From positions 1-25,138 of the IMG/VR virus record IMGVR_UViG_3300045806_000099: a stretch of 25,138 nt of DNA; one strand, 5' to 3'. The position numbers and the translations under genes are program-made. This DNA comes from a virus. Positions 3,163 through 25,138 of this stretch are shown one piece after another (position 1 is the stretch's first letter; every line of letters starts with the position of its first letter). The notes beneath the pieces were generated by a model. That model saw only the letters and a list, made by a program, of their open reading frames with translations. It ran no database searches and had not been told where the DNA came from.

Positions 3163-3959
3163 TGGCGCGCGCCCGCAGCATAAAACCCGGGCTATACAAG
3201 AACGAGGAGCTGATTCAGTGCTCCGTCTGGGCTCGCTACATCTTCCCAGGCTTATGGATGCTGGCCGACAGGGAAGGGCGCCTGGAGGACCGACCCATAC
3301 GCATCAAGATCGAGCTGCTGCCTGCCGATTCGCAGGACGTCGACCAGCTGCTCGATGAGCTTCAAGCCCGCGGATTCCTGGTGCGCTACCAGAATTCGGA
3401 CGGCAAGTTCATCCAGATTTCCAAGTTTCTGACCCACCAGAACCCGCATTATTCCGAGAAACCTAGCACCATCAAGCCGCCAGAACTCCCGGAAAAAGCC
3501 GCCATAATCAAATCCGATTCTGGGAAGCATCCAGCCATGAACGGGCATCCACTCCCGGAAAATTCCGGAGAACTCCCGGAAAAAGCCGCTAGGAAGAGGG
3601 GGTCGCAACCCCCCTCTTCTCTGACTCCCTCTTCATTGACTCCCTCTTCACTGAGTCCTGACTCCGGGAAAGAGCAGGAGGCGCGCGCTTCGCGCTTCGC
3701 CCTGCTCCAAATCCCGCCCGAGTGGTCGCAGTTCTGCCGCCAAGAGCGGCCCGACCTCGACCCCGCCCGAACCTTCGAACGATTCGCCGACTACTGGCGA
3801 GCCAAGCCCGGCGCAGACGGGCGAAAGCTCGACTGGTTGGCCACCTGGCGCAACTGGGTGCGCGACGAAAAATCCCAACAACGAAAACCCGGAACCCTGG
3901 GCACCGCGGGCGCACAGGCCGCAAACGTCATCCAAGGCTGGCTCGAAAAGGGGGCATGA
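3162..3959 (+). CDS. O-like replication initiator/organiser protein (265 aa)
   Basis: The N-terminal ~105 residues (MARARSIKPGLYKNEEL, then WMLADREGRLEDRPIRIKIE, LLDELQARGFLVRY and FLTHQNPHYSEK) are the conserved DNA-binding region of a large phage replication family annotated as DnaT-like or O-like. A proline- and serine-rich linker (about 105-170) is encoded by repeated DNA. The C-terminal part (WSQFCRQERPDLDP, then FADYWRAKPGADGRKLDW and ATWRNWVRDE) is a conserved module found at the end of phage and DnaT-type replication proteins. The ribosome site AGGGAGAG precedes the ATG. By analogy with lambda O it would bind iterons inside its own gene and recruit the helicase loader encoded next door. 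Confidence 0.88.
   Translation: MARARSIKPGLYKNEELIQCSVWARYIFPGLWMLADREGRLEDRPIRIKIELLPADSQDVDQLLDELQARGFLVRYQNSDGKFIQISKFLTHQNPHYSEKPSTIKPPELPEKAAIIKSDSGKHPAMNGHPLPENSGELPEKAARKRGSQPPSSLTPSSLTPSSLSPDSGKEQEARASRFALLQIPPEWSQFCRQERPDLDPARTFERFADYWRAKPGADGRKLDWLATWRNWVRDEKSQQRKPGTLGTAGAQAANVIQGWLEKGA
3483..3669 (+). other. Iteron-like repeat cluster, candidate phage replication origin
   Basis: A 20-bp sequence beginning GAACTCCCGGAAAAAG occurs exactly twice (3483-3502 and 3570-3589). A related CTCCCGGAAAATTCCGG lies at 3552-3568 and a variant CTCCGGGA at 3662-3669. Another CTCCCGGA lies upstream at 3104-3111. A 15-bp tandem repeat follows at 3622-3651. Placement within the linker of the O-like gene is the same as the lambda origin in O. 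Binding is not shown. Confidence 0.55.
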
Positions 3960-20876: not shown

Positions 20877-21295
20877 CGCATCCGGCGGTTGTGGAGGCCA
20901 TGACCTGGCTGGGCACCCCCTGGCACCACGCCGCGCGCTTGAAAGGCGCAGGCGTCGATTGCGCCATGTTCCTGGCCGAGGTCTACGAGCGCGCGGGCCT
21001 CATCCCGCACGTCGAGGTGGAACCCTACCCGCGCGACTGGCACCTGCACCGGGGCGAAGAGCGCTTCATGGGCTGGGTGGAAAAGTTTGGCAGCAAGGTG
21101 GAGGAGGGCGATCCGCAGCCCGGCGACGTTGTCCTCTTCAAGTACGGCCGGTGCGTCTCGCATGGCGCCATCGTCGTTGAGTGGCCCGGGAGCATTGTCC
21201 ACGCCTACATGCTGGCCCGGTGCGTGACGCTCACCCGGTCCGATGACGGCGACCTGGCTGGGCGCTTTGCCGGCGCTTGGAGAATTGCCCCGTGA
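20873..21295 (+). CDS. NlpC/P60-type tail peptidase (140 aa)
   Basis: The GTG start overlaps the previous stop (GTGA). Catalytic residues are visible: Cys30 in [12 protein letters not shown], His97 in CVSHGAIVV and His110 in SIVHAYM, in the NlpC/P60 order. The entry motif [19 protein letters not shown] is typical. The enzyme would cut peptidoglycan stem peptides locally during DNA injection as part of the tail tip. Its gene lies between the DUF2163 protein and the giant tip protein, the place of lambda gpK. All catalytic residues are present. Confidence 0.9.
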
Positions 21296-24200
21296 GCGGC
21301 CTTTTCCGGGGCAAGGTGAGCAGCAATGTGCCGGTGCTGTCCTCCATGCGGATCGACACCGCGGTGCTGGCCAAGCCCATTCCCATCGTCTACGGACGCC
21401 AGCGCGTCCCGGTCAACATCATCGACTACCTGGACTTTTGGAGCGTCCAGCAGCAATCCGGCGGCAAGGGCGGCGGCACCGTCACGGGCTACACCTACTA
21501 CGCGAATCTTTTGCTTGCGCTGTGCGAGGGCAACATTAGCCAAGCACTGGCGGTGTGGTCTGGAAAGACGCAGTACCCGGTTGGAACGACCAGCACAGTG
21601 AACGTTGGCTACGTCGAGAAATATTCAGTCAACTCGGTCACCAGCGCGTTCAACACCACTCAGATACCGATTGCGGCCACCTACACGCTGCTGGCTTGGA
21701 TAACCGCCACCGGGCCGCAAGCGCCGGGCTTTGGCAACTACTACACCTTGGTCGAGGGCACGGACTTCACGTATAGCGCCGGAACCACCAATTTCACGAT
21801 CACGTCGACGTTCTGGGCGCGGCTCTCCGCTGCCGGGCTGACCACGCAGAGCACCATCATCGAAGTCGGCTACTACTTTGCCAGTCCGGTGGGCGCGTCC
21901 GCCCTGGGCAACATCAACGCTTCGCTGTTCACCGGATCCACCGGCCAGGCCGTGTGGTCCTGGCTTACCGCGAACCACCCGACGCATGCGCTGGCCTACA
22001 ACCGCCTTGCCTACCTGGGCGTGCTTGGCCTGCAGCTGGACTCATCGGGCTCGATGCCCAACATCACGATCGAGGTCGATTCTGGCTTCAATTACAGCTC
22101 GACGATCCACGATGCCAACCCAAAGGACATCCTCTACGATTTCCTGACCAACGCCAATTACGGCGCGAATTTCCCCTGGTGGAAGCTGGGAGACTGGACG
22201 CAGTACTCGAAATATTGCGTGGCCGCCGGCACGCTGCTGTCGTTTTGCCTCGATACCCAGACCACCGCGGCCGATGTGTTGCGGGGCATCGCGCAGATCA
22301 CGAATTCGGATTTCGCCTTCACCGACAACCAGCTCAAGATCACACCCTACGCGGACGCCGCAGTCAGCGGAAACGGGATCACCTTCACGCCCAACCTCAC
22401 CGCGCAGTACGCTCTGACGTACGACGATTTCCTCGACCAGAAGGGCGGCAGCAAAGGCCCGTTGGTCGTGTTGCGCAAAAGCCCCATCGAGCGCTACAAC
22501 AATGTGGCGATCAAGTTTCGCAACCGGAACAACCAATACAACGACGACCAGGCCGAGGCCAAGGATGAGGGCGATATTGCGATGCGCGGCATTTTCCCGA
22601 TGCCGCAGGTCGATGCGCAGTACATTGCCGACCCCAACGTCGCGCGAAATGTGGCCCAGCTCATTCTGCAGCGGTCCATTGCGGTCAGCACCACGTTCCA
22701 GTTCTCGCTGCCGTTCTCCTTCTGCGCCCTGGAGCCGATGGATCTGGTCACGCTCACCGATCCGCGCCACAGCCTGGTGGGCAAGCTAGTTCGCATCACC
22801 GAGATCAGCGAAAACAAGAACGGTGATCTGGACTTCATTGCCGAGGATGTGCCCTTCGGCCACGCCACGGCCATCGCCAACCCGGTGCAGGTGCCGCTGG
22901 GGTACCGGATCAACTATGGCGCATCCCCCGGCTCGGTGAACGCGCCCATCATCTTCGATGCGCCTGGCGACCTGACGAGCACGGGCTTCGAGGTGTGGTG
23001 CGCGGTGGCCGGCGTCAATCCCCTCTGGGGAAGCGCCACCGTCTGGGTTTCCACCGATGGCGTGAGCTACAAGCCGCTGGGATCGGTGGAGTCGGCCCGG
23101 TATGGCTACCTCACGGCCAGCACGCCGGCCGGAACCGATCCGGACGTTGCCGACACCTTCGCAGTGAATCTCGCAACCAGCCTGGGTACGTTGACACCGG
23201 GCACCACGAACGACGCTGACCTTAATAACACGCTGTGCTGGTGCGACTCGGAGATGATCAGCTACAGCGCCGCCACGCTGACCAGCGCCAACCATTACTC
23301 GCTCAGCACTTACATCCGCCGCGGGGTCTATGGCACCGTCAACAGCGCGCACGCGAACGGCGCCGGCTTCGTGCGGATCGACGGCAAGGTCTTCCGGTAT
23401 GCCTACGATCCCAAGCTGGTCGGGCAGACGATTTTCTTCAAATTCACGTCCTTCAACATATACGGTGGGGGCGAAGAGGCGCTGGCCAGCGTCACGGCCT
23501 ACAGCCACGTCATCACAGGCCCGATCGGAACACCCTTGCCGCCGACCAATGCGGTGGCCAACGTCGAGCCCTCCGGGCTACGAATAAGCTGGACGCCATC
23601 GCAATCGCAGGACGTATCGCTCTACGAGCTGCGCCAGGGCGCGAGCTGGGCAACCGGCACGCCACTCACCGCGGGCACGGGTGCAAGCCAGATCGGTGGC
23701 GCGAGCTTCTTCTGGGCGGTGCAGGGCGCGGCCAACTATCAGGTGTGGATCGCCGCCGTGGCACCCTACAGCGCCAACGGACAACAGGTTTACTCGCCAG
23801 CCATCAGCGTGGCGATGATCATCACCGCGCCCAGCGCCGTGAGTAACCTCACGCAGCAAGTCGTCGACAACGAGCTGCTGCTGTTCTGGTCCGCCCCATC
23901 GGCTGGCTCCTTGCCGATTGCCCAGTACCAGCTCTGGCGCAGCCTGCCGGGCCAAGCGTTCGGGCTGGCCACCGAGATTGGCGTCAACGGTCCCAGCACC
24001 TTTCTCACGTATTTTGAGACGGCGGCGGGCAATTTTGTCTATTGGATCGTCCCCGTGGACACGGCTGGCAACGCCGGGCCGCCCACGCCAGTGGCGGCCA
24101 CCATCAATGCGCCGCCCGATTACCAGCTCCAGGGACAGTACGCAACGATCTGGGGGCCGGATGCGACCACCATTCTGACCCGCTTCACCAACTGTTACGT

Positions 24201-25138
24201 GGAGGCCGGCCACCTCATCGGCCCGGTACCCGAGCCTCTGACTTGGGCGCAGCACTTCACCAACAACGGCTGGACGACACCCGCGCAGCAAGTCGCTGCC
24301 GGCGACCTGGTCTATGCGGCCCCGGGCGCGACAAGCGGCCTCTACGAGGAGGTGATCGATACGGGCGCGACGCTCCCCGCCACCAACCTCTCGATCAGCC
24401 TTTCAACCGCGGCGGTGGAGGGCAGCGTCACAATCACCCCGACGATTTCCTGGGCTGGCTCGCAGGTGGGATTCACCGCAACTATTTCGGGCACCGTGAT
24501 GACGGTCTCGGCGGTTTCGTCTGGCACACTAGCGGTCGGCCAGCAGGTTTATGGCGCGGGCGTCTCCGATGGCACGTTTATCACCAGCTTGGGCACGGGA
24601 ACTGGCGGCACCGGGACGTACAACCTGGGGGTGGCCTCCACGGTGGGCACGGGCACGGCAATGACGGCCTACCTTTGGCTGAGCGCGACTGCCGGCCAGA
24701 CTGCGACGCTGGCCACCTTGTTCCGATACATCCGGGTTTCTCTGGCGTTCTCGGCCGCAGGCGGCCCGAACGTGATCGCGGCCACGTCTCTGATCACCAA
24801 GATGTCGATCAAGCAACAGACCGATCAGGTCACCGCGACAATCAATGGCCCGACCCTTACGGCATTTACGGCCACGATCAGCGGCACCACGCTCAATGTG
24901 AGCGCGCTCAGCACAGGCGAGCTGGGCGTGGGTTCGATCATCACCGGAACCGGCGTCACGGCGGGCACGACGATCACCGGCTACGGCACAGGCACGGGCG
25001 GAACGGGCACGTACACATTGAGCGTTTCTCAGACGGTCAGCACAGGCACCGCGATGACGGCGGCCGGCACGGTCGTCCACTGCAACAAAACGTTCGTCGA
25101 GATCAACGGCGTCTCGGTCACGTCGCAGTCCGGTGCGC
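21292..25138 (+). CDS. Tail tip/host-specificity protein, J-like (3' end outside window, 1282 aa visible)
   Basis: GTG 21292 overlaps the peptidase stop as GTGA, and the frame stays open to the right edge. The first ~520 residues form the conserved hub ([60 protein letters not shown], then [20 protein letters not shown]), seen in central tail hub proteins. Two FN3-like domains follow near 747-840 ([20 protein letters not shown]) and 846-942 ([20 protein letters not shown]). A further beta domain after 955 ([18 protein letters not shown]) is interrupted by two 66-residue repeat modules. The protein would contact the receptor and set host range. The C-terminal end is missing. Confidence 0.92.
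24472..24669 (+). repeat. 66-residue Gly/Thr-rich module, copy 1, inside the tip protein
   Basis: It encodes a module starting [15 protein letters not shown] and ending [10 protein letters not shown], with the core [10 protein letters not shown]. It is 44 of 66 identical to the second copy by hand alignment. It lies in a loop of the surrounding beta domain. Such modules are known in many tail-fibre proteins. Confidence 0.8.
24865..25062 (+). repeat. 66-residue Gly/Thr-rich module, copy 2, inside the tip protein
   Basis: It encodes a module of exactly the same length, starting [15 protein letters not shown] and ending [10 protein letters not shown]. Host-domain sequence continues on both sides ([12 protein letters not shown] before, [17 protein letters not shown] after), so it looks like an insertion into a beta-hairpin loop. 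Confidence 0.8.

Follow-up and report, generated by a model that had tools for sequence, protein, structure and literature searches.

Two 66-residue stretches, which on their sequence and modelled fold appear to be members of one unnamed family of small beta-barrels, are carried by the tail-tip protein encoded at the end of the window (i.e., the whole stretch of DNA under analysis, 25,138 bases, corresponding to the entire record IMGVR_UViG_3300045806_000099), and the comparison with related proteins supports the in-frame insertion of both into loops of its C-terminal part.

The tip-protein gene and its two module copies

The window is a phage fragment harboring genes for a terminase, a portal and a prohead protease, together with a series of tail genes. 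A short segment of 56 bases (positions 3252-3307) shares 89% identity with a replication initiation gene of Pseudomonas phage F10, the rest of the window being unmatched at that sensitivity. The tip protein is encoded by the last gene, and the contig stops 75 bases past the second module copy. The start of the gene is placed at about 21277, this 5' limit of the ORF being set by the frame and not by a fixed start codon. The protein matches Phage-tail_3 (1.8e-27), Rcc01698_C (1.9e-9) and phrog_1101 (1.9e-94); the match to GTA_megatron (4.1e-34) is under the cut-off of that model. The features referred to below, all on the same strand, are the following (A7 is the alignment of the window with 22 relatives, and L124, L111 and L112 are three further relatives; the host domain is the one bearing the modules).

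21277..25137, +: tail-tip protein (GTA megatron / Rcc01698 type), 1287 aa or more, last gene, open at the contig end
22252..22806, +: Phage-tail_3 domain, residues 326-510, profile match
23095..23373, +: Rcc01698_C domain, residues 607-699, profile match
24124..24816, +: host domain, predicted CBM-like jelly roll split by copy A, model residues 5-235 (AlphaFold2 model, VIA-align)
24472..24669, +: module copy A, 66 aa, site 1, from self-comparison; gap in 22/22 relatives (A7); other insert here in L124
24670..24864, +: host sequence separating the copies, 65 aa, aligning with uninterrupted relatives
24865..25062, +: module copy B, 66 aa, site 2, from self-comparison; gap in 22/22 relatives (A7); other insert here in L111/L112
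25063..25137, +: resumed host sequence, 25 aa, up to the contig end, ahead of the expected position of site 3 of relatives

Copy A is preceded by a strand ending in ten residues not reproduced here and followed by YLWLSATAG...FRYIRV; copy B is preceded by INGPTLTA and followed by 14 residues, likewise not reproduced. The initial annotation had reported two copies of equal length and 44 identities out of 66 residues, and this was fully borne out: in a control of 100,000 shuffles the mean was 9.9 identities (sd 2.7) and the maximum 23, the second-best pair of 66-residue stretches within the tip protein shares just 18 residues, and the identity between the copies drops sharply at either end of each. 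At the DNA level the two copies are 60% identical. Their GC3 (0.788 for copy A and 0.833 for copy B) falls inside the range of the host parts, so that nothing in their composition points to recent acquisition. The same annotation had noticed that the host sequence resumes after each copy, and indeed the 22 relatives show two clean gaps in A7, located exactly at the copies.

When modelled alone, from its own alignment, the module is predicted to form a small beta-barrel with long strands at both ends (pLDDT 94.8, pTM 0.81), which suggests a compact and independent fold. Its nearest solved neighbour is chain 1 of 8eci, from Arthrobacter phage Bridgette (Foldseek E 0.024, TM 0.75, 34% identity), which is also the top row of the VIA comparison; its Z of 7.1 is slightly above the rest and represents a lead, not a proof of kinship. 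The other rows, with Z of about 6, comprise F1-ATPase, EF-Tu/IF2, lambda gpJ and tailspike barrels, and at Z below 8 such similarity may be a mere common arrangement; that the endosialidase barrel is missing from the rows listed carries no weight for or against a shared fold.

The C-terminal part with both copies was modelled with AlphaFold2 from 23 sequences (mean pLDDT 70.7). Block means were 81-95 in the host stretches 71-120 and 191-240 of the model and 49-67 over most of both modules, whose placement in the model is thus of low confidence. VIA-align of the host stretch gave Z values of 10.1 (9nwi), 9.9 (K2-2 tailspike) and 9.6 (CBM27 1of3), the matches at Z 8.4-10.1 over 100-130 residues including CBM27, CBM16, CBM61, CBM35, a tailspike and other jelly rolls. 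The host domain is thus predicted to adopt a jelly-roll fold resembling that of carbohydrate-binding modules; this is a common fold, and no family is assigned on its basis. In model numbering the jelly-roll match spans residues 2-235, copy A residues 121-186 and copy B residues 252-317. Copy A would therefore be inserted in the jelly roll, and copy B in the stretch leading to the last, incomplete part. The proposal that both copies sit in different loops of one beta domain holds in this model for copy A, which lies inside the jelly-roll stretch, and fails for copy B, which starts 17 residues past its end.

Occupancy of the loop sites in relatives

Relatives of the C-terminal domain were found in viral contigs, in bacterial contigs and in one named phage, Curvibacter phage P26059A; PHROGs names the proteins that end in this domain 'tail protein and host specificity' (phrog_1727 for L091). 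After the removal of six duplicate rows and of two fragments (L110 and L115), 34 distinct domains were left, including that of the window. The initial annotation had named the constant presence of both copies in relatives as an outcome that would speak against insertion; what was found is that sites 1 and 2 are both empty in 30 of the 33 distinct relatives, and the existence of these forms supports the reading of the copies as in-frame inserts in two loops. Of the remaining three, L124 is filled only at site 1, and L111 and L112 only at site 2. The four loci retrieved by scanning bacterial contigs for the host domain are all devoid of the module.

The filled sites of relatives do not hold the same part as those of the window. 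No relative comes closer to the window over the protein body than L124 (55.6% identity, residues 6-954), whose site 1 carries 82 aa of another family and whose site 2 is empty; in L111/L112 the insert at site 2 measures 76 aa. No profile match to the window's module under E 0.001 was obtained in the tip proteins of relatives, the site-2 insert of L111 and L112 being matched at E 0.019. A third loop (site 3) harbors a barrel-like insert in 11 of the 30 relatives with empty sites 1 and 2, the row of L145 ending before this loop. The family of the L124 insert, which was retrieved in 167 stretches of viral contigs, is related to the site-3 inserts (hhalign 94.6%, E 6.8e-8), and these in turn match the endosialidase beta-barrel (4hiz, E 2.4e-6; 1v0e, 3.6e-4), the match to the Pfam endosialidase barrel (E 5.9e-5) being under the curated cut-off. 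The window's modules could not be linked to the profiles of these endosialidase-related inserts (hhalign 17.6% with A5 and 0.3% with A9). In L102 and L006, a long array of FG-GAP-like repeats, as read from the sequence, lies between the site-3 insert and the resumption of host sequence. Since the loops are empty or differently filled in relatives, they look like sockets for interchangeable parts.

It might be argued that the two stretches are instead an old integral part of the domain, lost in relatives. In the tree of the insert-free domain, whose backbone is weak, two changes are required at each of sites 1 and 2 and a single one at site 3, and the window is a long branch (1.4) whose position is fixed by no starred branch; the midpoint root serves for drawing only, so gains and losses are not separable, which leaves room for losses. 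The stable retention of the module in another host protein (see below) is also in keeping with an old part. On the other hand, different inserts occupy the same sites in L124 and in L111/L112, and the jelly roll matches solved structures lacking the module, which makes an integral origin most improbable. The alignment of relatives with and without each insert, which the initial annotation had recommended in search of exact in-frame gains, agrees with in-frame insertion; it did not catch a fresh gain, the empty relatives being distant (22-42% identity in A7, whose 22 relatives were picked without L124, L111 and L112), and for this tip domain no pair of close relatives differing only by the module was found.

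The same tip body is also present in Pseudomonas phage KT1, Acinetobacter phages 5W and Effie, and Brevundimonas phage Polewnik (L120-L123). The tip proteins of these four phages gave no match to the C-terminal host domain, suggesting that this domain is itself optional.

The module family and the age of the copies

A scan of viral contigs with the module retrieved at least 599 stretches, at least 317 of which encode a relative of it. The best 80 of these, together with the window (81 sources), contain 229 module copies in 147 ORFs, and once the modules are masked, 20 groups of host proteins can be distinguished among these ORFs. The matches of nine ORFs, taken from nine groups, to PHROGs include head-closure (phrog_578), tail sheath (phrog_205) and phrog_3287, as well as virion structural, tail fibre and tail spike proteins. 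The module model matches BFVD entries annotated as HK97 major capsid protein (51% identity), P22 gp10-like protein, tip attachment protein J, side tail fibre and pectate lyase superfamily. A further BFVD entry, A0A1V0SCQ2, a collagen-repeat protein of the giant virus Indivirus ILV1, shares 54% identity with the module model, with a TM of 0.90. In the bacterial genomes of the Rhizobacter (L116) family, the module was found in 2 of 299; both matches (L375, 5404-7974, -; L376, 3558-6158, +) lie in a prepilin-like protein, so called from its N-terminal stretch read by eye, adjoining MshE/T2SSE and T2SSF genes, a gene setting linked to surface adhesion.

In the copies of Pfam and NCBIfam that were scanned, the window's modules matched no family. 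A search of Pfam with 41 family members (A4) yielded no good match, the best being FeoA (3 members, E 0.0046), and PF12195 was not matched by any of the 41. Copy B alone gave no tblastn match among named phages; the low-complexity filter of BLAST may explain this, and the family is common in IMG/VR. The most conserved stretch of the module is a Gly/Thr loop (residues 43-49, mean 3.5 bits).

In one of the other host families, a structural protein, the original module is kept in place in 80 of the 80 nearest relatives, which suggests that it is old rather than hopping, and that gains are rare and the module mostly inherited. Within the same family, proteins of 399 aa (L050/L051, 4554, +) and 402 aa (L083, 4545, +) differ from those of 329 aa (L018, 3002, +; L068, 1800, +) by an exact 71-residue module, in frame and nested inside the older copy, near its last strand; this is the only protein in which forms with and without an extra module were found as a pair.

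The equal length of copies A and B, their membership in one family and their 44/66 identities might suggest that a single insert was gained and then duplicated inside the tip protein not long ago, the more so as their identity (0.65) is among the higher values of the 82 pairs of copies within the same ORF (median 0.505) and exceeds that of most pairs from different loci, 13% of which reach it. The codons tell otherwise: the two copies share 18 of the 44 codons at identical residues, against 20.0 +/- 3.2 expected from an independent draw by gene usage, i.e., a random level. Moreover, of the 222 outside copies, 7 resemble A and 6 resemble B more closely than the two sister copies resemble each other, and pairs within the same ORF are overall no closer than pairs from different loci (0.53). 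A recent local duplication was therefore rejected, and we regard it as very unlikely. The idea, put forward from the sequence alone, of a module that moves or duplicates as a cassette found no support as far as recent events are concerned, in view of these figures and of the retention of the module in the other host protein. The likeliest origins of the pair are two separate acquisitions or a duplication old enough to have lost its trace.

Proposed role and comparison with known systems

With slightly more confidence than doubt, we propose that the two modules are accessory surface-binding barrels lodged in permissive loops of a CBM-like jelly roll, ligand and protrusion being inferred. From these two in-frame positions in the C-terminal part, the barrels would be exposed at the surface and might bind glycans of the host surface with low affinity, as a supplement to the main receptor contact. 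By analogy, a contribution to surface affinity appears the most likely role of the modules of the window, and interchangeable loop parts of this kind probably help the phage to hold its host. The analogy draws on the endosialidase-like barrels at sites 1 and 3 of relatives, on the inserts in the Dit proteins of skunaviruses and on neck and tail proteins decorated with CBMs. In the K1F tailspike, the endosialidase barrel is one of three polysialic-acid binding sites (PMC12632334); in skunaviruses, carbohydrate-binding domains inserted in Dit (the 'evolved' form) promote adsorption (PMC10688798); and CBMs decorate the neck and tail proteins of related phages (PMC6669499).

The presence of the family in head-closure, sheath and capsid-annotated proteins, where receptor contact is not obvious, lends some probability to a structural role. 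Accordingly, the modules might be spacers or clamps stabilising the tip or neighbouring subunits, without binding to the host: a rigid barrel with its ends close together would be easily tolerated in a hairpin, which would account for its spread, and both the assignments to phrog_578, phrog_205 and phrog_3287 and the BFVD matches with major capsid and P22 gp10-like annotations fit this reading, as does the retention of the module in all 80 near relatives of one structural host family. The conserved Gly/Thr loop may itself be structural. Nevertheless, the 30 relatives of the tip domain without the module indicate that it is not needed for the fold, and both bacterial matches fall in prepilin-like proteins, in the adhesion-linked gene setting described above; a purely structural role thus seems rather unlikely to us, and the accessory binding role is preferred.

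A broader and tentative extension, which we hold possible though doubtful, is that the family represents a general plug-in barrel of virions, entering permissive hairpins of tip, fibre, sheath, head-closure and capsid proteins, of MSHA-like pili and of a giant-virus fibre, sometimes in nested form, and that the sockets of the tip domain swap barrels, thereby changing affinity without mutation of the receptor site. Should the loops indeed accept exchangeable barrels, tips could shift their surface affinity in one step, leaving the fold untouched. The same sites occupied by different barrels would offer a direct test of whether inserts tune adsorption, and naming the family would annotate a recurrent part of many virion proteins.

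Loop-inserted accessory modules are in general already known. No description of this module was found in the open-licence literature searched, and against that literature three elements are new: the barrel family, which is unnamed; its presence in duplicate in a single tip protein of the megatron type; and the filling of the same loop by a different barrel family in a relative. Promiscuous Ig-like domains are a well-known case of one small beta domain recurring in many unrelated phage virion proteins; the module differs from them in being a barrel and not an Ig sandwich, in its internal insertion into loops, and in the nesting of one module in another. Phage tail and receptor-binding proteins have been reported to contain fragments also present in proteins to which they are otherwise unrelated, their domains being shuffled in varied arrangements (Smug 2023, PMC10684548); the module and the loop sites accepting different barrels are not among the arrangements described in the excerpts of that study. 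The endosialidase beta-barrel (PF12195, 1v0e, 4hiz) is likewise a small barrel in a phage protein contacting the host, and related barrels are located at sites 1 and 3 of relatives; in contrast, the modules of the window have no profile match to the PF12195 family.

The comparison with evolved Dit proteins concerns lactococcal and other siphophages of Gram-positive hosts, in which a BppA-like CBM insertion has been described and its binding tested (Hayes 2018, cited in PMC6669499; PMC10688798). As in the window, a small extra beta domain is inserted in frame within a structural protein of the tail tip, and filled and unfilled forms exist. In evolved Dit, the insert is linked to glycan binding and adsorption, whereas in the window binding is proposed by analogy. 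Unlike evolved Dit, the window combines a host protein of the megatron/Rcc01698 type with an unnamed barrel family and with two filled sites.
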